Of a stretch of DNA of 47,094 bases, positions 108 through 13,548 are shown piece after piece (the stretch's first letter is position 1; every line of letters starts with the position of its first letter). The translations under genes were made by a program, and so were the position numbers. The stretch spans positions 1-47,094 of the forward strand of contig JAIEFR010000018.1 of NCBI GenBank assembly GCA_029066845.1, read 5' to 3'. Source of the stretch: Clostridia bacterium (GTDB taxonomy: Bacteria; Bacillota; Clostridia; Christensenellales; Borkfalkiaceae). Under the pieces are notes generated by a model. The model was not told where the DNA came from, made no database searches, and saw only the letters and a list, made by a program, of their open reading frames with translations.

Positions 108-270
108 TGCGCCACAATTGAATACTTATTATCATATAAAGGTTACAACGGCATAAGTGTACCCTTCTTTTCCTTTATGTGATAATTGTACTTATGGAAT
201 TGTGGCGCAACTATTAAGGGACATTTAGGCGGGCGTTCCTTAATAGGAGCGCTCTTTTTTATTTGCCCGC
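108..270 (+). promoter_or_regulatory. Structured 5' leader RNA with terminator/antiterminator, copy 1 (candidate riboswitch or attenuator)
   Basis: The predicted transcript opens with TGCGCCACAATT (108-119), which pairs perfectly with AATTGTGGCGCA (198-209), giving stem P1. Inside it, 128-142 pairs with 172-186 (P2, 15 bp, one G-U). The P2 loop carries GCATAAGTG (151-159), whose CATAAGT can pair with ACTTATG (190-196), making a pseudoknot. One base after P1, CTATTAAGGG (211-220) can pair with TCCTTAATAG (237-246) as an antiterminator. That pairing excludes the terminator hairpin 231-239/246-254. GCGGGC (229-234) can also pair with GCCCGC (265-270) next to the ribosome site. The whole architecture recurs at 5292-5566 with different sequence. 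I do not recognise it as a known riboswitch class; ligand unknown. Confidence 0.7.
231..263 (+). terminator. Leader terminator hairpin, copy 1
   Basis: GGGCGTTCC (231-239) pairs with GGAGCGCTC (246-254) through a six-base loop, followed by a T-run at 255-260. It sits between the promoter and the start codon at 286, so it must be conditional. Its 5' arm and loop overlap the bases of the alternative antiterminator stem. Confidence 0.75.
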
Positions 271-285
271 GAAGGAGTACGCTTT

Positions 286-3200
286 ATGAAAATTAAACGT
301 AAAACTTTTTGGGGAGGCATAATAGCCGCGCTGTGCGCTTGCACCGCGCTCACTTTCGGCGCGGTTTATTCTTCTAATAATAAGGTAGATGCAAGTGCGG
401 CAACTGCTCAAAACCCTAAGGATAAAATACAATTAACATATACGGCTTCTTATTTTAGTTCGACGACTGCTTCTAGCGTTGCTGTTGGATCAATGACCCC
501 TTTTGACGCTACTCATTCATTACAGTATAGCAGCGGTCCAAGTCTTAATGCCGTAGGGACACATATTACTTATAGTCAGACAACAGCATATAACAGTGGT
601 AAATGGGTATATTTTGACGTTAAAGTAAATATACCTGTTCCCGCGTGGGAAGAGTGGGATGTATCATATAAGCTTGACTTTACTTTGAGTGGGTCTAATA
701 ATTCGGACGGCGGATACAATCAGTCGGTGGGTGCATTATATTATTTGCCTGATACGACGACTTTTGACCAAACTTACAACAATACTACGCAAGCCGATTC
801 GAGTAGCATTACAGCTTTGACTTACACAGCTGTGCCAGTGTCTGGCAACGGCAGATATGTTAATGGCAAATATGTACAAGGTAAGTCAATATCTCATACA
901 CCGGCTCTTTATTCCAGTGCAACAGATCCGACTACTAAAAGTACGCTTACGCTTACCAATAAGTCCGGCAACGAAAAAACTTTTACTTTCAGTTACGGAA
1001 TGTACGTTGCTCTATCTATCAGTTCTTCTCGTAATAGTAGAGTTACTGCTTGTAACACATTATTAACTGCGGACGATGTTACCGTAAAGGAGTTGTCTGT
1101 GCCTGTGCCTTCTCCCGATTTAACTTACAATTATGACGGCACGGATAAAACTAGCACGATAGTGGATACAATAGAAAATTCAAATTGGTACACTAAGGGC
1201 GGCGCAGATTGGTATACTCCCGGCAGTTGGGCGCAATACGTGCTTCCCGCCGGCGAAATTAAAAACGTAATTAAAAATGACGGAGTAATCGGCAGTTATG
1301 AAATTTCGTATTCGCTTTTAGATATATATCCGTTTAAGCTTGAAGACGGAACTTTTACTACCGACTCGCAGACTTTAAAAGTAACCATAAACCCCTTAAC
1401 GCTTCCCACACCGAGCGGAACGGTAACAATCACGTACAACGGCGAGGAAAAAACGCTGTACGACCTTGCGGACAATTTACGACCCGGATGGTATGATTCG
1501 GATATATACACCGTTCCCAGCATAATTGAAATGGACGATAGCGTTTTCGACGCAGGGGATAAGACCGTTTCGGTAACGTTAAAGTCGTCTAATTACGTTT
1601 GGTCAAATAGCTCAAGCAACTCTTCCGCCGTGCGGACTTTCACGTTCAGGGTCAATAAAAAGGCTCTTGAAACCGAGTTCGTAGATGAAAACGGATTAAA
1701 GGTTGCAAAGTTTAAAGACGAAAACGAAATTTACACGCGCGACAGCGGCGACAAATATCCAATACTTGTAACCAGATATTCCAAAAACGGCATTGCGGCA
1801 AGTGCGACTTACACCAGCCCGAACAGCACGGGTCCGTGGTACGCGCACGCATTTTTGGAAAACGCGGAAAGCTGCAACTATTCGGTTGCAAACACGGGCG
1901 AGTCGTTCACCCTCGATAAAATCGGCGTTCCGTATCCTACACTCGTCGGAAGCGGAAGCGAGGTTTACGATGGCGGGGAGCACGAGTTCATTTACGAAGG
2001 GTACGACCCCGAACTAATGACCTACACTAAACCTGACGGTGCAATCGACTTTGACGGCGAAATTTTAAAAGTAAAAAACGCAGGCACTTATACGCCCGTA
2101 TTCACTCTTTTAAATAATGCGCTTTATGCGTTTTCGGGTAATGCGCCCGCCGCAGTCGAAGTTACGCCCAAAACGGCTACTCTTTCGGCAAGTGTTGACG
2201 GCGGTGAGTGGGGCTGGGAAAGGAGAACGACCAAAGAGGTTGAAATTACCGTTTCAGGCGTTGTTACTGACGATTTGCCCAACTTAACCATAAATGCAGC
2301 TTATTTAAAAGACGGGGTGTCCAGAACGATAGGCGCTACGGCTTATGATTCGGGCTATAAGTATAAGGTAACTATTCCCTCGATAGCGCAGATTGCGACG
2401 TACACGCTTACGCTTACGCTTGCGGACGGCGGAAACTATGCTTTGGCAACGCCGTATACGCAGACGTTCAATATTACCGGTACGGTACCGCCCTTTGACG
2501 AGCAGTATATAGTATGGCAGTACACCGTGGACGGAAGGAAAACGCAGTTAAACGATTTCGTATATGACGGCGACGTGGTTTTGGTTGAATTCACAGGCAA
2601 AGAATATACGTTTTCGGTTGACGAAACCGATTTGCAGCCCTACGGCTTAAAAGTGAAAGACAACGGTTATCAGGGGCAAAGTGCGACCAACGTTAAAGCG
2701 GCTGATAACGGAATTTACACTATGACGGTGACGATTGCAGCGATTGACGAAAACACTGTTTTTGCCGACACGTCGTTTACTCTGCAATTTAAAATAGTTC
2801 CCAAGGTGCTTGATTTTTCAAATGCCGAGTGGGAATACAGCGATTCGACGGATTCAGACGGCAACAAGATATGGGAACCGCTTTCAGTAAGTAGTAAGCC
2901 CTCGTATACGGGCAATGCGGTTTCCGTGCGCATATCGCCAGCATATATGGCAAGTATAGGGCTTGCGGCAGGCGACTACACCGAAAATTATAGCTCGTTG
3001 GACAACCTCACGGAACAGGGACAAAAGAGGACCAATGTCGAAATTACGATAACCAACGCCAACTACACGACGGCGGACGGCGGCTACGTATCGATACAAT
3101 ATGACTGGGAAATTACGGCGCGTGCATTGACTTATAGCTGGAGCGGCACGCAGAGTGTGCAAGCTGGCGGTCAGTCGTTTGATATCCCTGCAATAGTCTT

Positions 3201-5142
3201 TGACGCTCCCGGCGATTATTCGCAGTATTACGAATATATTTATACAGTGGATGACACGGATTACACGTACGAACAGTTGCAGGAATATATGGCGGCAAAC
3301 TGGACGGACGAAACACCCGTAAGCGGTACGATGCGCGTGCAATTGAAGGACGGCGTGACTGATTACGTCATACTTACGAGCAGCCGTCAGTTCAATACGG
3401 GCACTCCCAAGATGACGCTTAGCGTTGCTGTTTCTGGCAGCGGTGCGGAGTACGGAAAAGTTTCGTTTGCGGTTAGCGTCGTAAGGGGCACTTCGGACGA
3501 GAGCAGGCGTACGGAGGTTACTATTTCGGGCGGCGCGCTTGAAACTGCGCGTACCTTTGACGGTAACGACAACGAACTTGCTAAGTTTGTCAATAAGCTC
3601 GGCGCGGGAATTTATACGATTACCGTAAGTCTGAAAACTGACAACGAAGATTCTTACGTTCTTTCGCAAAAGGAATTCGAGTTTGTGGTTTGCAAACAGA
3701 ACGTGCAGCTTCCTACCGTACGCGAAATAGTGTTCACGGGCGAAACGATAAATATTATTGATTACCTCGACGGCTTTGACCCGGAGCTTATGAAGCTTAT
3801 AGGCGCGGCGGAAGGCGAAAACGGTATCGTATCGGGACGCGATTACAGAAAGAGCGGCTATTTCACGACTATTGCGCTTATAGACGGCGCGAACTACCAG
3901 TTTGTAAAGGCGGCGGAGAGCGGCGCGGAAGCGGTTAAGGCAACCTTAAAATTTGCAGTTGCATTTGCCGACGGCGAAGAAGTGCTCGGCAGCGAGTACG
4001 AAATCAACTGGATGATAAACCGTTTCCGCATCACCGAAGATATGTGGGACAAGAGCGGTAAGCAGGGCGTAACGCTCAAGCTGCCCGCACAGTTTGCGGC
4101 AATGCTTGCGGACGAAAACCTGTTGAAGATAACTTTCAACTACTATGAAGACCAGAACGGCGCGGCATTGGAAGACTTCACCTTCAAGGGCGGTAATTCG
4201 TTCTATGTGAGCGCGACCCTGACGGGCGAGGAAGCCAACAACTTCGAATTCGAAAACGCCTCGCAGATTTCGGACAAAACCGTTTATACGGTACCGCAGA
4301 GCAAGACGGAAGCGTTCTTCAACAACACGATGACGTTTGTAAAGAACAATATGATACTCGTTATCGGTTGTGCGGCAGGCTTGTTGCTTTTGATACTTCT
4401 TATAATAATAATCGCTTGTGCGGCGCGTGCGGCAAAGAGAAAGCGCGAACGCGAGGAACAGCGCAGGCTGGAAGAAAAGGAAGAGCGCAAGCGCGAGCAG
4501 GAAGAACGCCGTCTGGAACGCGAGGAAAGAATGGCGCGTATGTCCCAGCAGCAGATGATGATGCCTCAGATGATGCCCCAGGGAATGCCTCAGATGGGCG
4601 GACAGGCTATGTCGATGGGCGGCTCTATGGGCGGCGGTTCGGTAAGCGAAGCGCAGTTCAGGCAAATGCAGGAGGAGCTGGCGGAGCTTAAGGCCGAAAA
4701 GCTTGCAAAAGAGGCGGCGCAGCAGCAGATTGCCCAGGCGAAAGCCGACATACAGTTTGCGGGCTTTATGGCGCAGATTATGCAGGGCGGCGGCTCAATG
4801 GATAAGCTTACCGAGATTATCAGAACGGAAGTCAGAAACGCGCTTGCGGACGAAAGGTCGGCAGGACAGTCGCCCGACGGACGTAAGGAGGAGGCAAAAG
4901 AGGCAACTCCCGTGTGCCCTCCAGACGCGGTAATGACTACGGTGACAACCACCAAGATAGACACTACCAAGAAGCAGGCGCAGGCGGCACAGACAGGCGA
5001 GCGCGCGGCGGCAAGACCGATAGTGCGCAACTTTGTGGCACCTATGCCGGTGGACGACGGCAGAGTGTTTGACGTGGGCGGCTTCTATACACCCGCCGAC
5101 TCCGTAGCCGATATAGGTTCGAGCGAAGAAGACAAGGATTAA
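286..5142 (+). CDS. Giant single-pass surface protein with MBG/Ig-like ectodomain and conserved cytoplasmic tail (1618 aa)
   Basis: Function unknown; probably a surface adhesin or glycan-binding protein. Residues 1-38 form a signal peptide (KIKRKTF start, then a hydrophobic core ending near Ala). The ectodomain to about 1350 is Thr/Ser/Asn/Tyr-rich and carries repeated MBG/Ig-like units with recurring T-Y-N-G-x-x-K and N-Y-x-x-T patterns; there is no LPXTG motif. A membrane helix spans about 1356-1380. The roughly 238-residue cytoplasmic tail has an Arg/Glu coiled coil, a Met/Gln/Pro-rich segment (about 1418-1450), a second helical stretch, VMTTVTTTKIDTTKK near 1547, and a C-terminal VAPMPVDDGR...FDVGGFYTPAD block. 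The signal peptide and tail are shared with the next gene. The ATG at 286 follows GAAGGAG (271-277). The N-terminal 250 residues use more AT-rich codons than the rest, suggesting domain exchange. Confidence 0.85.
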   Translation: MKIKRKTFWGGIIAALCACTALTFGAVYSSNNKVDASAATAQNPKDKIQLTYTASYFSSTTASSVAVGSMTPFDATHSLQYSSGPSLNAVGTHITYSQTTAYNSGKWVYFDVKVNIPVPAWEEWDVSYKLDFTLSGSNNSDGGYNQSVGALYYLPDTTTFDQTYNNTTQADSSSITALTYTAVPVSGNGRYVNGKYVQGKSISHTPALYSSATDPTTKSTLTLTNKSGNEKTFTFSYGMYVALSISSSRNSRVTACNTLLTADDVTVKELSVPVPSPDLTYNYDGTDKTSTIVDTIENSNWYTKGGADWYTPGSWAQYVLPAGEIKNVIKNDGVIGSYEISYSLLDIYPFKLEDGTFTTDSQTLKVTINPLTLPTPSGTVTITYNGEEKTLYDLADNLRPGWYDSDIYTVPSIIEMDDSVFDAGDKTVSVTLKSSNYVWSNSSSNSSAVRTFTFRVNKKALETEFVDENGLKVAKFKDENEIYTRDSGDKYPILVTRYSKNGIAASATYTSPNSTGPWYAHAFLENAESCNYSVANTGESFTLDKIGVPYPTLVGSGSEVYDGGEHEFIYEGYDPELMTYTKPDGAIDFDGEILKVKNAGTYTPVFTLLNNALYAFSGNAPAAVEVTPKTATLSASVDGGEWGWERRTTKEVEITVSGVVTDDLPNLTINAAYLKDGVSRTIGATAYDSGYKYKVTIPSIAQIATYTLTLTLADGGNYALATPYTQTFNITGTVPPFDEQYIVWQYTVDGRKTQLNDFVYDGDVVLVEFTGKEYTFSVDETDLQPYGLKVKDNGYQGQSATNVKAADNGIYTMTVTIAAIDENTVFADTSFTLQFKIVPKVLDFSNAEWEYSDSTDSDGNKIWEPLSVSSKPSYTGNAVSVRISPAYMASIGLAAGDYTENYSSLDNLTEQGQKRTNVEITITNANYTTADGGYVSIQYDWEITARALTYSWSGTQSVQAGGQSFDIPAIVFDAPGDYSQYYEYIYTVDDTDYTYEQLQEYMAANWTDETPVSGTMRVQLKDGVTDYVILTSSRQFNTGTPKMTLSVAVSGSGAEYGKVSFAVSVVRGTSDESRRTEVTISGGALETARTFDGNDNELAKFVNKLGAGIYTITVSLKTDNEDSYVLSQKEFEFVVCKQNVQLPTVREIVFTGETINIIDYLDGFDPELMKLIGAAEGENGIVSGRDYRKSGYFTTIALIDGANYQFVKAAESGAEAVKATLKFAVAFADGEEVLGSEYEINWMINRFRITEDMWDKSGKQGVTLKLPAQFAAMLADENLLKITFNYYEDQNGAALEDFTFKGGNSFYVSATLTGEEANNFEFENASQISDKTVYTVPQSKTEAFFNNTMTFVKNNMILVIGCAAGLLLLILLIIIIACAARAAKRKREREEQRRLEEKEERKREQEERRLEREERMARMSQQQMMMPQMMPQGMPQMGGQAMSMGGSMGGGSVSEAQFRQMQEELAELKAEKLAKEAAQQQIAQAKADIQFAGFMAQIMQGGGSMDKLTEIIRTEVRNALADERSAGQSPDGRKEEAKEATPVCPPDAVMTTVTTTKIDTTKKQAQAAQTGERAAARPIVRNFVAPMPVDDGRVFDVGGFYTPADSVADIGSSEEDKD

Positions 5143-5186: not shown

Positions 5187-5257
5187 CTATTTCAACCACA
5201 ACATATAGTGTTTTATGCAAATTTAACAACTATTTTAAAAATCTTTGCCGAAAAGTA

Positions 5258-5286
5258 TTGTAAAATTGAAAGCGCCGTGATAAAAT
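5258..5286 (+). promoter_or_regulatory. Promoter of surface protein gene 2
   Basis: TTGTAA (5258-5263) and TAAAAT (5281-5286) lie 17 bp apart, at the same place relative to the leader stem as in copy 1. About 60 bp upstream of the -35 box is also alignable with the first gene, including the imperfect palindrome CACAACATATAGTG (5197-5210). Confidence 0.65.
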
Positions 5287-5291
5287 ATGTA

Positions 5292-5566
5292 TGCCAAATA
5301 TCAAACTTCATAATAGGTAAAGTGTCACTCATAGTATTGAGTTGTTTTTGCGTTACATTTTTATCAATCTTCATCACAGATCGTTAATGGCATATAGTAC
5401 CTGACTTGTCTGTGTGAAGAGCATAAGTGCATAAACAATTTAATACATAATTGTCGATACTTTGACACCTTATCGCAAATTTACAAAGAAAGTTTGATGT
5501 TTGGCGACTGTTAAGGGTACTTAGTGCGGGCAACCTTTAACGGTTGCCCTTATTTTTTTAGCCCGC
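5292..5566 (+). promoter_or_regulatory. Structured 5' leader RNA with terminator/antiterminator, copy 2
   Basis: Same layout as the leader at 108-270 but larger and diverged. P1 pairs 5292-5308 with 5490-5506 over 17 bp with two G-U pairs. P2 is the shorter GTGTCA/TGACAC (5322-5327/5463-5468). GCATAAGTG recurs (5421-5429) and can pair with CTTATCGC (5469-5476), just 3' of P2 as in copy 1. An extra 11-bp hairpin, 5369-5380/5409-5419, fills the loop. One base after P1, CTGTTAAGGG (5508-5517) pairs fully with CCTTTAACGG (5534-5543), with compensatory A-T to G-C and U-A to U-G changes relative to copy 1. GCGGGC (5526-5531) can pair with GCCCGC (5561-5566). Confidence 0.7.
5528..5559 (+). terminator. 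Leader terminator hairpin, copy 2
   Basis: GGGCAACC (5528-5535) pairs perfectly with GGTTGCCC (5542-5549) around the loop TTTAAC, followed by TTATTTTTTT. The antiterminator partner (5534-5543) overlaps the stem and loop, so only one of the two can form. The start codon is 26 bp downstream. Confidence 0.8.
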
Positions 5567-5584
5567 AAAAAGGGAGTACGGTTT

Positions 5585-8500
5585 ATGAAAATTAAGCGTA
5601 AAACTTTTGTAGGAGGATTGTTAGCGACACTGTGCGCGTGCACTGCGCTCACTTTCGGCGCGGTTTTTTCGTCTAATAAAATCAGCGCGGAAGCCGCAAT
5701 GTCGGTTACTTCGTCAGACGCGGAAGTTATCGGCGAGCTTGCCAAGGACTACGCGGCGAGCGGTTGGAAGGGTTCGTACAACCCCGAAAACGTTTCTAAA
5801 CTTTACGGTGCGATATCAGGTACTACGGGCGCGAACGCGACTTTGCAGTCGGTTAAAACTGCGCTTACTTCTTCAACGAGCACGGAATCTATAACGGGCA
5901 ATAAAGTTATAACCGCAACCGACTTAGCGGCGGTAAGCACGCACAGCGGCAAGGATATAGTTGTAACCTTGGGCGGTTTACAGTGGACTGTCGTCTACGT
6001 TTCCGAATCAATCGGGGGCGACCTTGTTGCAACGCTTTTGCTTGCCGACTCTCTTAATGACGGCAGCAACTATGTTTCGGGTCGTTTTGTAAGCTGGTCG
6101 TCAACGTCTACTAATTCCCAAGGCGGTGCCTATCCCGCGAATATGTACAGTTCGAGTCAGTTAAGAAGCGTGCTTATGGGTACCCAGTATTCAACAAACT
6201 CGTCAACTCTTTCAACCGTTGCTCAAGGCGAGGCGAATCAACATACCGGCATAAAGGCTATGATAAACAATTTCGGTTCGACGGGCGTTATAGCAACTCC
6301 GCAGGATATGAAGTGGCAGGAAGCCGAAAATTCAAAAGATATCTTATCGAACTTTACTCATCCTTCGGGTAACGTAACGCCTACGGTCAGACAGTTTAAC
6401 GACGCCTGGGGTACGGGGCTTACGGGTTACAGCACAAAAGTAACAAACTACGAAAATAAAACTGCATACTTAGACTGGATAAGCGACTATTTCTGGATAC
6501 CGAGCGTTGCCGAAAGAGCTTATATAAGTGATTCTGTACAGGGGATGTGGAAGCTTACTGCAAATCAGCGCAAAAGCACAGGCGTAAGATACAGTTCAAC
6601 TGGCGGCGACCCTATGGTATGGAGCCGAACAGCTTCTGCGTCAAATTCTACTAATCCTTCTTGGTGGGTTAACGGCAGTGTAGCTTTCAATTTCCGAGAG
6701 GATGGTAATGGGATTCATACTGGCGGCGATTGCGCTTCGACTATGGCTGTTCGCCCCGCAATGCACCTCAATTTGTCTGCGCTGAACAAAAAGGTTTTAG
6801 CCAACCCCGCTGACGTAACCACCGAACCCGATGGTGCAAGCGGCAGACAGAATATCGTGTACGACGGAAGCGTTAAAGACCTTGACGCGGTTTTACCCGA
6901 CTGGTACACCGGTAATGAATCATTCTTCAACGATTACGCGGATATAACCTATCATTATAAAAATACGGGCGATACGACCGCATTCGATACGACTAACCCC
7001 GGTACTTTAACCGCGGCAACGGACGTTAAAAACGCGGGCAGATATCAGGTTACGATAAAGCTTAAATCTACAAGTCCGATAACCTGGTTCGCCGCAAGCG
7101 GAGCCCCCGTTACCGAAAAGAAAGTTATACTTACCGTACAGCAGTGCGAAGTCAAGTATAAGTGGGCGAATATAGGACTTGACAGCTCGTGGGAAGCGAC
7201 GTTTGCGCAGACCTTTACACCCGCAACGGGTACTTCTGCCGCGCCCTGGGTATATTTAAACTACACTCTGCCCGTTACCACCGATAACACGGCTTCGGGC
7301 GGCAGCGGCGGCACGGTTTCAAATGATACGGTACCTTACGTTCTTTTAACGTTCACGGGTACGCAGTCGCAGTTTGCCGACTATAAAATTTCTGATATAG
7401 ACAACGTGCGCAGCACTACCTCGAAGGGCAGTGACTATCCCAAACACGCAGATACTTATACCGTGTCATTTACGGATAAGAACGCGAAGACTTCAAACTA
7501 TAAGCTGGTTGCGGACACGGGCGAAAGCGCAACGCGGCAGTATATTATACATAGATTGAAGGTGGACGTTCCCACTGCGCCTGCGGCGCTTACTTATAAC
7601 GGCGCGGACCAGCCGTTCAGCAACGTGCCCAAGTTCGATTCTAAGTTTATGACCTACGGTCAGATGGCGGCGGACGGTGTAACCTATAACGAGAACGCAA
7701 CGCCCGTGCAGTCGGACGGCACTACGCCAAAAATGACGGCAAGCGTTACGGCGAACAAGCTTACGCTGACGGCTAAGGACGCGGATAAGTACGATATGTA
7801 TTACCGTCTGCTTACCGAAGCCAATACTTCAAGCGTGCAGGAAGTGCGCGACTATATGTGGACGGATGCAACCTCCGCAGACTCCGCGCCTATAAAGAAA
7901 GTCACCTACGAAATCAAGGCAAAGACTCTTGAATTTACTTTCTCTTCAAGCAGCAACAGCTGGTCGATAAAGAATAACGACGAAACCAACAAGCTTACGT
8001 ACGACTATGCTTCGGGCAAGGGACCCGCGGCGGGAGAGGAGCCTGTTCTCGAACTGTATTACTATCTCAATTCGGACGGCGAAACCAATGCGGTCAAGCA
8101 TTCGGACAGCACCCAGCTTTTGTTCAAGGACTTAACGGACAGGAACAATATGCACGCAACGGGCAAATATACGGTTGTTATCAAGCTTGCGGACTGCGAC
8201 GATACTACCAATACGGTAAACAAGAACTATGTAATAGACGAAACCGCGGCGGCGACTTATCAGAAGGAACTTACCATAACCGCGGGCGAAGCGAGCATTG
8301 ACGACATAGGCATATTCTACAACACGGCAAAGAAGGAGGCGGACGGCATACCTGCCGCGGCTATTCCTTCGGGCGGTTTGACTTACGAATATGACAGCCT
8401 TACCAAGCAGGTTACGGAGTATAAGTTCGAGCTTGATTTTTCGAATATAGATTACCTGACGTATGCGGATACGATATCCTGGAAGTATGCCGACGGTGAA

Positions 8501-11164
8501 ACGACGGCAAGCAAGGCGGGCAAGCTTACCGTTACCGTAAAGATTAAAGTCAAGGACGACGAGGCGGCTAATCACGTTCTTCCCGCGGCGTTCGACGTAA
8601 CGCAGACAAACACGTTCAAATCCTATCTGAATAACGGCGACGGAACGGCAACGCTGACTTTCGAAGTGGAGATAGGCAAGCACGAAATAACCGTTGCTGG
8701 CAGCGATATTCCTTTGAAATATCAGCGCGAGGGCGGACAGGTGACCGACTACGATCCTAAGAACCCTCCCGAATTCAACGGTAAACCCGTTACTATTTCG
8801 CTTCCTCACGAAAGCTTATACCCGCACGGTATAAAGTCAATCGAGTTTGACGAAACTGCTCCCAAGAAAACGCAGGCAGGCTCGTACACAATCGGCGCAA
8901 CAGTAACGCTGGACGACAACCACGTTCTTGCCAACGGAAGCTCTACCGTGCACGTGGATATCCCTTGGGAAATTTCCAAGGAAGTTATAAAACTCGCGTG
9001 GGGCAAACCTACGTACTTCGACGATTATTTCAACGACAGCTCCGTGGCGCATTTGCAGGTAATGCTTTTGAGCGGCTTGACGGAAGTGCAGGAAGGGGCG
9101 ATTAAGTACAGCTTCTATAAGATGGTGGACGGCGCGCCCGACACAACGCCTTTATCCGATGCGGAGCTGAAAGCGCTTTGCACCAACGACAGATTCACCG
9201 ACTCCAACGAAACGTGGCTGTACGTAAAGGCAGAGCTCACCGAGGACGGCGCAAAGAAGTATAAGCTGGAAGACGACGCCACCAAGAACCCCAAGAAGTT
9301 CAAGCTTGGCGGACAGATGACGCTTATAGAGCTTAAAGTAGACGATGAGAAAATCAGCGGCTACGAGTACGGCGGCGAGCTGGATTTGAGCAAGGTATTC
9401 ACGCTTATCAACACCGAAACGGGCGACCCTTGGGACAGCTCCTACTATGAAATCCGCGTGCTCAAAGACGGCGTGGATATAGGCGAGCTTTCGGAGTTCA
9501 ACCCTGCCGCAAACGGTGCGGGCAAGTACGTTATCCAAATAAATATCAAGCCCGAATATGCGGAAGACTATACGCTTGACAAGTCAAACAAAGTAGACTT
9601 CGAAATTCAGCGCAAGGAAATTGCCGTGCCCACATTCAGCGGAATTTTGTTCAGCGGCGAGTATATCAACCTTGCCGATTACCTGGGCGGAAGCTATGCC
9701 GAGTACAAGGATATAATCAGTCTGAGCGGCGACTATCTGGAATTGAGAAACGTAAGCCAGAACGGATATACGGCACGCCTGACTTTAACTGACCCCAACT
9801 ACAAGTGGGCAATACCGACGACGGCGGAGCCCGCAAGCCTGAAGCTCTTTGCGGCTAAACTGTTCGATGATGAAATCACAATTCTGGACGACACTATTGC
9901 CGAACTGAAGTGGAACATTATGCCGCTTGTAATCGACACCACCGAGATGTGGAACAAGGGCAAGACGGGCGCAACGCTCAACCTTCCCGAGAACGTAACA
10001 AAGCTTATCAATGCTGAAACGTTGAGCTTGTTATACAAGTACTACGACGATGCTGATCAGTATATCGAAACTCCCGAGTTGAAGGGCGGCAAGTCTTTCA
10101 GAGTAGAAGCTGTGTTCGGCGGTATTGACGCCGAGAACGGTAACGTACTCTTTAAGACGGCAGACGGCAATTTCGGAACGATCAGCGACAAGATAAGCTA
10201 CACCGTACCCCAGAGCGGCTTTGCTGCGGCGATGGGTAGCACGCTTAACTTCCTCAAAGCAAACTGGCTGTGGCTTATAATTGCGGCGGCAGTGTTGCTG
10301 TTCCTCATAATACTTATCTGCATAATTGCAAGTGCAAAGAAGAAAAAGCGTATCCGCGAGGAGCGCAGACTTGCCGAGGAAAAGGCGGAGCGCGAGCGCA
10401 AGGAAGAGCGCGAAGAACAGCGCAGGCGCGAGGAGCGTGAGGAGCGCAGAATGGAGCGTATGAGTCAGCAGCAGATGATGATGCCGCAAATGATGCCTCA
10501 GATGATGCCTCAGATGATGCCGCAAATGATGCAGCAGCAAATGCCTACTCAGCAGCAATCCCAGTATGCACCCCAGCAGCCTATGGCGTCGGGCGGCAGC
10601 TCAAACGAAATTGCCGAGCTCAAAGCCGAAATATCGGCTATGAAAGCCGAAGCGGCGGCAAAGGAATCGGCTGCGCTCAGGGCGGAGGTTATGCGCGCGG
10701 AGCAGGCGGCTATGAAGGCAGAGCAGAACGCTGTTTTGCGCAGTGACGTAAACGCAATACGCGGCGAGCAGTTCTCGGGCTTAAATATGGACGCGATGAC
10801 CGAAATTATGACCCGTGCGCTCAAAAACGTATTTGCTTCGGCTGCACAGCCCGTGGTTACTGCGCCTCCCGCACAGCCCGCTCAGCTGACGGACGGAAGC
10901 TCGTCTACGACAACTGCAAACGCAGTCTATCCCCCCGACGCGGTAATGACCACCGTGACGACTACAAAGATAGACACGACCAAGAAGCCCGCGCAGAACG
11001 CGCAGGCAACGGCGGCGCAGCCCTCGCCCTCAGGCAGGACGATAGTACGCAATTACGTTGCGCCTATGCCCGTGGACGACGGAAGGATATTCGACGTTGG
11101 CGGCTTCTATACGCCTGCCGACCCCGTTGATTTGGGTTTGGAAGAAGAGGATAAGAAAGACTAA
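5585..11164 (+). CDS. Giant single-pass surface protein with DUF6273-like N-terminal domain (1859 aa)
   Basis: Paralogue of the preceding gene: the same KIKRKTF signal peptide (1-37), and the same tail architecture after a membrane helix at about 1560-1582. The tail has an Arg/Glu coiled coil, QMMP repeats near 1625-1660, VMTTVTTTKIDTTKK near 1785 and a closing VAPMPVDDGR...FDVGGFYTPAD block. Residues about 95-400 differ from paralogue 1 and resemble the DUF6273 domain (related to C-type-lectin/formylglycine-enzyme-like folds), ending in WSRTAS...MAVRPAMHLNLSAL. Residues 400-1550 are MBG/Ig-like repeats. There is no sortase signal, so anchoring is by the membrane helix. The start ATG follows AAAGGGAG. 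Role likely adhesion or recognition, unproven. Confidence 0.85.
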   Translation: MKIKRKTFVGGLLATLCACTALTFGAVFSSNKISAEAAMSVTSSDAEVIGELAKDYAASGWKGSYNPENVSKLYGAISGTTGANATLQSVKTALTSSTSTESITGNKVITATDLAAVSTHSGKDIVVTLGGLQWTVVYVSESIGGDLVATLLLADSLNDGSNYVSGRFVSWSSTSTNSQGGAYPANMYSSSQLRSVLMGTQYSTNSSTLSTVAQGEANQHTGIKAMINNFGSTGVIATPQDMKWQEAENSKDILSNFTHPSGNVTPTVRQFNDAWGTGLTGYSTKVTNYENKTAYLDWISDYFWIPSVAERAYISDSVQGMWKLTANQRKSTGVRYSSTGGDPMVWSRTASASNSTNPSWWVNGSVAFNFREDGNGIHTGGDCASTMAVRPAMHLNLSALNKKVLANPADVTTEPDGASGRQNIVYDGSVKDLDAVLPDWYTGNESFFNDYADITYHYKNTGDTTAFDTTNPGTLTAATDVKNAGRYQVTIKLKSTSPITWFAASGAPVTEKKVILTVQQCEVKYKWANIGLDSSWEATFAQTFTPATGTSAAPWVYLNYTLPVTTDNTASGGSGGTVSNDTVPYVLLTFTGTQSQFADYKISDIDNVRSTTSKGSDYPKHADTYTVSFTDKNAKTSNYKLVADTGESATRQYIIHRLKVDVPTAPAALTYNGADQPFSNVPKFDSKFMTYGQMAADGVTYNENATPVQSDGTTPKMTASVTANKLTLTAKDADKYDMYYRLLTEANTSSVQEVRDYMWTDATSADSAPIKKVTYEIKAKTLEFTFSSSSNSWSIKNNDETNKLTYDYASGKGPAAGEEPVLELYYYLNSDGETNAVKHSDSTQLLFKDLTDRNNMHATGKYTVVIKLADCDDTTNTVNKNYVIDETAAATYQKELTITAGEASIDDIGIFYNTAKKEADGIPAAAIPSGGLTYEYDSLTKQVTEYKFELDFSNIDYLTYADTISWKYADGETTASKAGKLTVTVKIKVKDDEAANHVLPAAFDVTQTNTFKSYLNNGDGTATLTFEVEIGKHEITVAGSDIPLKYQREGGQVTDYDPKNPPEFNGKPVTISLPHESLYPHGIKSIEFDETAPKKTQAGSYTIGATVTLDDNHVLANGSSTVHVDIPWEISKEVIKLAWGKPTYFDDYFNDSSVAHLQVMLLSGLTEVQEGAIKYSFYKMVDGAPDTTPLSDAELKALCTNDRFTDSNETWLYVKAELTEDGAKKYKLEDDATKNPKKFKLGGQMTLIELKVDDEKISGYEYGGELDLSKVFTLINTETGDPWDSSYYEIRVLKDGVDIGELSEFNPAANGAGKYVIQINIKPEYAEDYTLDKSNKVDFEIQRKEIAVPTFSGILFSGEYINLADYLGGSYAEYKDIISLSGDYLELRNVSQNGYTARLTLTDPNYKWAIPTTAEPASLKLFAAKLFDDEITILDDTIAELKWNIMPLVIDTTEMWNKGKTGATLNLPENVTKLINAETLSLLYKYYDDADQYIETPELKGGKSFRVEAVFGGIDAENGNVLFKTADGNFGTISDKISYTVPQSGFAAAMGSTLNFLKANWLWLIIAAAVLLFLIILICIIASAKKKKRIREERRLAEEKAERERKEEREEQRRREEREERRMERMSQQQMMMPQMMPQMMPQMMPQMMQQQMPTQQQSQYAPQQPMASGGSSNEIAELKAEISAMKAEAAAKESAALRAEVMRAEQAAMKAEQNAVLRSDVNAIRGEQFSGLNMDAMTEIMTRALKNVFASAAQPVVTAPPAQPAQLTDGSSSTTTANAVYPPDAVMTTVTTTKIDTTKKPAQNAQATAAQPSPSGRTIVRNYVAPMPVDDGRIFDVGGFYTPADPVDLGLEEEDKKD

Positions 11165-12828: not shown

Positions 12829-13548
12829 GTGGTCGGGTATATTCATTCCTTTGAATCGTTCGGTACCGTGGACGGACCCGGAATACGCTTCGTCGTGTTT
12901 ATGCAGGGGTGCCCGATGCGCTGTCTGTACTGTCACAACCCCGACACCTGGCAGAGGGGCGGAAAGGAGTACACGCCCGAGGAAGTCGCGGCAAACGTAA
13001 GAAAGTACAAAAGCTATTTCACGGGTGGCGGCGGAGTTACCGTTTCGGGCGGGGAGCCGCTTATGCAGGCGGATTTCGTGCGCGAGCTTTTCACCATTTT
13101 AAAGAATTCGGGAATACACACCGCACTCGATACGTCGGGAATAACCTTCAACCCCGAGGACAAGCATAAGTTCGACGGGCTTCTGGAAGTGACCGACCTC
13201 GTGTTGCTGGATATAAAGCATATCGACGGGGCGGAGCACAAAAAGCTTACGGGGCACGACAACAAAAACGTGCTTGCGTTTGCCGAGTACCTTTCGGGAA
13301 TCGGCAAGCCCGTGTGGATACGTCACGTTCTAGTGCCGGGTATAACCGATAACGACGAATATCTCACAGAGTTGGCAAAGTTTATAGGCGGTCTTAAAAC
13401 CGTGCATAAGGTCGAGGTCCTGCCCTATCACAATATGGGCGAAGTCAAGTATAAAAATCTGGGCGTGGATTATCCGTTAAAGGGCGTGCAGCCGCCCGAT
13501 GCCGAAAGGGTAAAAAACGCAAAGCGCATACTCGGAGTCATTAAATGA
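12829..13548 (+). CDS. pflA: Pyruvate formate-lyase activating enzyme (239 aa)
   Basis: Radical SAM enzyme that abstracts a hydrogen from the glycyl radical site of pyruvate formate-lyase, using a 4Fe-4S cluster and S-adenosylmethionine. The cluster cysteines C28, C32 and C35 form the CxxxCxxC motif within GCPMRCLYCHN. GGGVTVSGGEPLMQ is the SAM-binding GGE region. Length is normal for the family. The GTG start at 12829 follows ACGGAGG (12815-12821). It is the first gene of the ZTP-controlled operon, and its stop overlaps the next start (ATGA at 13545). Confidence 0.96.
   Translation: MVGYIHSFESFGTVDGPGIRFVVFMQGCPMRCLYCHNPDTWQRGGKEYTPEEVAANVRKYKSYFTGGGGVTVSGGEPLMQADFVRELFTILKNSGIHTALDTSGITFNPEDKHKFDGLLEVTDLVLLDIKHIDGAEHKKLTGHDNKNVLAFAEYLSGIGKPVWIRHVLVPGITDNDEYLTELAKFIGGLKTVHKVEVLPYHNMGEVKYKNLGVDYPLKGVQPPDAERVKNAKRILGVIK

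Follow-up and report, generated by a model that had tools for sequence, protein, structure and literature searches.

A candidate cis-acting attenuator family, without an Rfam entry, ahead of envelope-protein genes in gut Clostridia

What controls the two giant surface genes at the start of contig JAIEFR010000018.1 from a Clostridia bacterium of the Borkfalkiaceae? This contig, here called the window, is 47,094 nucleotides long and is contig C10 of a 1.56-Mb genome in 25 contigs, rated 99.1% complete. Giant surface protein 1 (286–5142, + strand; 1618 aa) has, by eye, a signal peptide, a C-terminal transmembrane (TM) segment and a charged tail, and giant surface protein 2 (5585–11164, + strand; 1859 aa) follows it. 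By eye, the C-terminus of both proteins consists of a TM segment followed by charged residues and a tail rich in M and Q; neither matched Pfam over cut-off. Each gene lies behind a structured leader, and the original prediction took the two leaders for a pair of riboswitches or attenuators of an undescribed class, alike in architecture and different in sequence.

All leader features lie on the + strand. By reading, the promoter of leader 1 (74–102) consists of a -35-like TTGAAA (74–79), a 17-nt spacer and a TG-extended -10-like TAAAAT (97–102). The sensor part (108–209) is closed by stem P1 (108–119/198–209) and contains the junction J1/2 (GAATA), P2 (approximately 126–142/172–186), hairpin P3 (141–147/158–163) and the loop motif GGCA (150–153). 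Pseudoknot (PK) strand a (GCATAAGTGTACCCTT, 151–166), which is common to the 3' strand of P3, pairs with strand b (AAGGGACATTTAGGC, 216–230), which overlaps the 5' arm of the antiterminator (AT), at a duplex energy of -16.5 kcal/mol. The antiterminator (211–221/237–246; -17.0 kcal/mol) and the intrinsic terminator (T; 231–239/246–254 plus U-run, to 260; -16.7 kcal/mol) both show covariation in the family described below. Leader 2 has its promoter, again by reading, at 5258–5286 (TTGTAA 5258–5263, TG-extended -10-like TAAAAT 5281–5286) and its sensor part at 5292–5506, with P1 (5292–5308/5490–5506), a long insert, P2 (5369–5380/5409–5421) and the loop motif GGCATATAGTACC (5389–5401) without a clear P3. 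Its antiterminator (5508–5517/5534–5543), pseudoknot strand b core (approximately 5515–5527) and intrinsic terminator (5528–5535/5542–5549 plus U-run, to 5559) follow, and its best pseudoknot duplex joins 5385–5420 with 5506–5545 (-19.4 kcal/mol). In both leaders P1 begins 5 nt past the end of the -10-like box. The folds are far more stable than shuffled sequence (z-scores of -5.35 for leader 1 and -7.89 for leader 2, with 0/200 shuffles equally stable), and P1, antiterminator and terminator lay in both leaders where they had been predicted.

The loop had to be redrawn. Comparison of paralogues gave a motif of GGCA, a short spacer and GUACC(C)U, which takes the form GGCATAAGTGTACCC in leader 1. 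The stretch first proposed as the loop of leader 2, GCATAAGTG at 5421–5429, sits elsewhere in the fold, and we take its nine-letter match to the leader 1 loop as a coincidence. The loop had also been expected to pair just 3' of P2; it pairs instead with the antiterminator region beyond P1, and the two partners change together: GGCA with UGC, GCCAA with UUGG, GUAUCC with GGGUAC and GUAUCUCUU with AAGAGAUAC.

Next, we examined how far the element extends. A DNA search with the 3' part matched 29 of 93 genus genomes, and a covariance model of 29 sequences covering the same part (R1) found the element in 47 of the 93. Among 92 genus members read via this 3'-part-only model, a strong P1 stood upstream in 86, the strict loop pattern was kept in 82, and 77 combined the two (six had a weak P1 and ten were without the strict pattern). 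A second model (R2), built from 18 full-length genus sequences with P1 and the terminator as its only structure, matched 143/251 genomes of a family sample (14/18 genera), 56/297 of an order sample (25/125 genera) and 26/291 of a class sample (18/180 genera); the samples are nested, in that the order sample holds family genomes and 3 of the 26 class-sample matches fall within the order. In a phylum sample of 299 genomes only the window's own matched, so that as a specificity control it gave 0/298 other genomes, at least nine of those from the same class. These prevalences are lower bounds, since any search covering over 40 genomes was run with tighter filters, at which weak matches drop out. 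The family is thus widespread in Clostridia, and to describe it as a pair of leaders for the giant genes understates its range.

Copies are numerous within genomes as well, reaching 12 at E ≤ 0.001 in the family sample (R2). The window's genome gave eight R2 matches: five leaders of giant genes and the copies at C12:12337, C25:50525 and C15:60607, with leader 2 and C20:74064 covered only in part. Model R1 added C19:543, a doubtful case with a weak P1 and no strict loop pattern, so the genome holds six or seven more copies besides the two leaders. R2 scored 136.6 bits on leader 1 (108–272) and R1 gave its best match, 93.7 bits, on leader 2 (5489–5579), each sequence being a member of the respective seed. 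Three more giant surface genes in this genome have the same type of leader with other stem sequences, so that the shared architecture and differing sequence first seen in the window's two leaders hold for all five. An exact search with the loop pattern in a named genome collection returned 62 stretches, all from Clostridia bacterium and 52 of them from isolates named 'Lapin...', which we read as rabbit. The same narrow pattern had 0 matches in viral contigs, and a viral origin was rejected on this result.

We then tested each helix for covariation. Of 110 R2 matches, four antisense and five poorly aligned sequences (L224, L227, L028, L229 and leader 2) were set aside; among the 101 rows that were kept, 83 were <75% identical and form the non-redundant set. 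As one of the sequences set aside, leader 2 falls outside this set, and we checked it separately. Since P2, P3, PK and AT are absent from the R2 structure, the alignment was not fitted to those helices. In a swap test, which compared each member's own strand with the same strand of its eight nearest relatives, the own strand was better for P1 in 83/83 members, P2 in 81/83, AT in 81/83, T in 80/83, PK in 77/83 and P3 in 63/83 (worse in 20/83), against 38, 39 and 44 of 83 for three control pairings. When strands were instead paired with those of all members (P2 left out), the mean of each pairing beat 2000/2000 permutations, which two controls did not. The own strand ranked within the best 5% of all partners for P1 in 67/83, AT in 54/83 and T in 48/83, but for PK in only 29/83 and P3 in only 19/83 (controls, 5 and 3), indicating that the PK and P3 strands combine covariation with sequence conservation.

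Counts on MAFFT alignments, for which the structures were read from the same sequences that were counted, agree. P1 and T together had 95.8% of cells paired and 58 two-sided cells (18 sequences), AT had 93.9% and 26 (29 sequences), and 0/500 column shuffles matched the paired share or the two-sided cells of either. Shuffles did reach the number of pair types (103/500 for P1 and T, 23/500 for AT) and, for AT, the number of pairs with two-sided change (71/500). Overall, covariation among the 83 members indicates that P1, P2, P3, PK, AT and T are all maintained. Homologues with covarying P1, P2 and antiterminator, which the original prediction had called for, thus exist in number, and the terminator covaries too.

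A further pairing in the original prediction, a second pseudoknot beside the ribosome site, fared less well. In leader 1 it would join GGCGGGC (228–234) to GCCCGC (265–270), spanning 228–270 on the + strand. The pairing is present and favored by shuffles (2/500 as well paired, 0/500 for the covariation score), with seven pairs and 88.2% of cells paired in 29 genus members, but it has only four two-sided cells and fails the swap test (45 better, 37 worse, one tie of 83). We regard it as weakly supported and rejected it as a main part of the element.

Promoter, junction and U-run recur around the helices as well. The -10 box ends 5 nt ahead of P1 in 69/83 members and 6 nt ahead in 8/83, a -35 box stands at a spacing of 17 in 56/83 and a TG extension in 74/83; these promoters are predicted from sequence, and they would place the transcript start at P1 in most members, as first proposed. 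A -10 box with 4/6 matches anywhere in the stretch also occurs in 78% of shuffles, so it is the fixed spacing that counts and not the presence of a box. Relatives outside the genus, read by eye, have a TTGACA- or TTGCA-like -35, 17 nt, a TG-extended TATAAT and 5 nt before P1 (for example, TGCGACACAAY..RTTGTGTCGCA), which is followed by an AATA junction, P2, P3 around GGCA or its variants, the 3' arms of P2 and P1 and then antiterminator, terminator and U-run in that order. Two junction letters taken as unpaired are conserved (A in 81/83, T in 77/83), and a U-run is found in 83/83. Some members, leader 2, L045, L046 and L048 among them, have a weak P3 or none.

How might these helices act together? 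Counting an overlap when at least three bases are shared, P3 and PK compete for the 3' strand of the loop in 81/83 members, PK and AT for the 5' arm of AT in 83/83 and AT and T for common bases in 80/83, and PK and T collide in 0/83. This chain of exclusions leaves two consistent states: P3 with AT (ON) and PK with T (OFF). Median duplex energies are -8.5 (P3), -16.3 (PK), -14.1 (AT) and -16.8 (T) kcal/mol. With pseudoknot loop costs left out, the median sums are -33.4 kcal/mol for OFF against -22.4 for ON, and OFF is favored by >5 kcal/mol in 72/83. With the greater stability on the side of PK and T, the element probably rests in OFF. The arrangement is that of a cis-acting attenuator, with mutually exclusive antiterminator and terminator in a 5' leader and a predicted promoter just upstream; as in a riboswitch, a sensor part is coupled to the expression platform by exclusive pairing, through the P3/PK and PK/AT overlaps. 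The attenuator in the original prediction is thus well supported; its core switch, hairpin P3 and the pseudoknot, had been overlooked. An attenuator working through a leader peptide was rejected for want of a conserved, translated short open reading frame (ORF): a Shine-Dalgarno sequence with an ORF of at least eight codons occurs in only 16/83 leaders.

Comparative sequence analysis establishes the helices, their overlaps, the promoter position and the gene context; from these we infer which way the element switches, in which state it rests, and that a signal acts on it and of what kind. Transcription would begin at P1, and the loop capping P2, GGCA..GUAYCC(U), would either fold back as P3 or pair with AGGG(A)UAC..UGC downstream of P1 to form PK. 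Because PK occupies the 5' arm of the antiterminator, the terminator would then form and transcription would stop; with P3 formed instead, the antiterminator could form and the surface gene would be transcribed. From a resting state that is OFF, a signal that favors P3 or blocks PK would turn on the envelope-protein genes, and this signal would most likely be a small molecule docking where P1 and P2 meet, at the conserved junction, and at the loop.

Is this a known RNA? Rfam 15 (4,227 families) gave no covariance-model match over the gathering score on the element, whether in the window, in both leaders or in 34 loci (13 from the genus, 11 from the family or order and 10 from the order or class), in keeping with an undescribed class. 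Elsewhere in the window the scan found a ZTP riboswitch (RF01750, 12693–12783, 52.8 bits) upstream of an ORF at 12829 and a 6S RNA (RF00013, 30860–31045, - strand, 64.8 bits). The only model to span the whole element was the nqrA-II motif (RF04310), described from Pasteurellaceae upstream of nqrA (PMC11109978), which reached 29.2 bits at L174 against a cut-off of 55. It passed that cut-off in 0/21 carrier genomes, and 4/5 of its weak matches lay elsewhere than at the R2 matches examined; the fit is in our view fortuitous. Ribosomal protein L20 leaders (RF00558) combine a pseudoknot with attenuation, as the present element would, but the two low-scoring matches (16.5 and 14.2 bits, cut-off 58.7; E of 0.8 and 4.1) are at chance level and the genes are unrelated.

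T-box leaders, too, choose between terminator and antiterminator in a long 5' leader. The present element differs in having no Rfam T-box match in the window, the leaders or the 34 loci, on which ground a T-box was rejected; no specifier stem or T-box bulge was seen, and its targets are not amino-acid genes. The c-di-GMP-II riboswitch, which also holds a pseudoknot, resembles the element in its control of transcription, its surface-protein targets and its tandem copies, but the element has no Rfam match to it, its stems and loop are different and GGDEF genes occur in only 22/143 carriers. An integron attC site was dropped because P1 does not fit the attC core-site consensus and the units carry promoters. 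No naming of the motif was found in the literature searched, including passages of PMC8040213, PMC11109978 and PMC9481103. An unnamed earlier prediction is possible, for example among the thousands of mostly unnamed RNA candidates that PMC8040213 reports in its supplements. On this evidence, the case for the window's leaders as members of an undescribed cis-acting attenuator class is strong.

The genes behind the element point to the cell envelope. For 154 members we obtained 137 distinct downstream ORFs (15 members had no ORF found), which were sorted by a crude home-made signal/TM rule; a few of them, such as L169 and L175, look like wrong frames. By this rule 118/137 look exported or membrane-bound, compared with 11/42 neighboring ORFs (Fisher p = 5e-13): 74 are lipoprotein-like, 29 carry a signal or TM segment at the N-terminus, 11 combine a zinc ribbon with a TM segment, four have an internal TM segment and 19 have none of these. 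In the window's genome the genes behind the C12, C25 and C19 copies look like lipoproteins and the gene behind C15:60607 does not. The excess of exported and membrane proteins suggests that the element marks an envelope regulon, and their lack of a common pathway would be unusual for a metabolite riboswitch.

Same-strand copies <150 nt apart were seen in 7/97 searched sources (L137, L164, L172, L182, L188, L219 and L233). Tandem riboswitches acting as independent units are described for several classes, and tandem c-di-GMP-II riboswitches before surface anchor genes (PMC9481103). Here, similarly, two family members stand in series before one gene (for example, at L172 and L164, whose two copies have different letters in the loop and pseudoknot); unlike those arrays, both units at L172, L164, L219 and L233 have, by eye, a promoter of their own. 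At L219 and L233 the tandem copies lie upstream of a small MIITFCGH.. protein, with the start codon within the U-run and the Shine-Dalgarno sequence within the 3' arm of the terminator (by eye), so that the terminator would also hide the ribosome site. The spacer at L219 still resembles a gene start, suggesting tandem duplication.

The window's leaders also share a promoter repeat of approximately 94 bp (9–102 and 5193–5286), of which copy 1 holds a perfect 14-bp palindrome (CACAATATATTGTG). It is placed 23 times in the genome: five copies precede leaders with the RNA switch, ten precede genes with a poly-G tract (L012, L023, L024, L029, L030, L031, L032, L033, L034 and L036), seven run into a contig end before a tract could appear, and one arises where contig C3 overlaps the window. 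The poly-G genes have a run of approximately 8–12 G just past the start codon, in a MKM..TTGGG signal peptide, and the frame is open in 3/10 (L029, L030 and L034), each with 9 G. These starts look like slipped-strand phase variation, and one promoter repeat appears to precede two kinds of on/off switch. Contigs break in or just past the repeat or a poly-G start at the starts of C1, C3, C4, C6, C10, C15, C16, C18 and C21 and at the ends of C14, C24 and C25, which suggests that surface loci break the assembly. These breaks had raised the idea of an invertible promoter; it was set aside, as the repeat or a poly-G start is the site of many of them and C3 merely overlaps the first bases of the window.

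What, then, sets the switch? An uncatalogued family of cis-acting attenuators, built on the P3/PK switch and releasing envelope genes upon a signal, is in our judgment a highly probable account of the whole. A more specific form of it, in which a new Clostridia riboswitch class senses one envelope- or growth-state molecule through a P3/PK switch of RNA only and governs a regulon of lipoproteins, adhesins and membrane proteins, sometimes in serial promoter-plus-switch units, is held tentatively, at slightly under an even chance. Alternatively, the same attenuator could respond to a factor acting in trans, either a protein or a small RNA, which would regulate genes envelope-wide by binding to the conserved P2/P3 loop (GGCAUA..GUAYCC) and thereby releasing the antiterminator. 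The recurrence of the element before unrelated genes of one genome, in up to a dozen copies at the E-value threshold above, would suit such a factor, as would targets that resemble an exported-protein regulon rather than a metabolic pathway, and likely regulators lie downstream of some copies (by eye, a LytTR-type response regulator at L140 and small HTH-like proteins at L183 and L213). Some weak evidence speaks against it: where the loop varies, its cis partner varies with it (GGCA/UGC, GCCAA/UUGG), a change that an invariant partner in trans would be expected to oppose. We consider this reading possible but unlikely. Rather less likely still is an attenuator without a signal, set by temperature, ions, transcription speed or NTP level, that keeps surface protein at a low basal level: the whole logic can run without a ligand and OFF is the more stable state, but the conserved junction letters and the wide conservation suggest a binding site.

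Two other readings seem very improbable. Hairpins that only stabilize the 5' end of the mRNA or terminate upstream transcription would fit a very stable P1 at the very 5' end, yet this leaves the maintained P3, PK and AT pairings unexplained, and the element carries its own promoter. A second-messenger riboswitch for c-di-GMP or c-di-AMP, if anything the more remote of the two, is suggested by surface-protein targets like those of c-di-GMP-II riboswitches, which also occur in tandem (PMC9481103), and by GGDEF genes in the window's genome. However, GGDEF genes, found in 42/251 family-sample genomes overall, are no more frequent in RNA-bearing than in RNA-lacking genomes (22/143 versus 20/108, p = 0.61), and G131 (11 copies) and G202 (12 copies), both rated 99% complete, have none, with the proviso that metagenome-assembled genomes (MAGs) can miss genes. 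The c-di-AMP cyclase DAC was found in 13/15 RNA-bearing genomes; it was not found in G438 (three copies, rated 99% complete, subject to the same proviso for MAGs) or in G423 (rated 100% complete), whose one copy (49 bits) was left out of the 83 for poor loop alignment. These patterns make both molecules unlikely as general ligands. RelA/SpoT is present in 15/15 carriers, which fits an alarmone (ppGpp or PRPP-type) but has no discriminating power, and among the candidates considered through carrier genes (c-di-GMP, c-di-AMP and alarmones) none was positively supported. An alarmone or a wall-related metabolite may be the signal.

For the signal-released attenuator that we favor, the structure and the attenuation logic are well supported by the comparative data, and the bistable layout means that short synthetic templates would allow direct tests of both the ligand question and the ON/OFF logic. 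A structured, covarying RNA for which no Rfam entry was found is present in 143/251 sampled genomes of one family of gut Clostridia and also in other families of its order and class. The element would be a widespread control point for genes of surface proteins and lipoproteins in gut bacteria that are for the most part uncultured.
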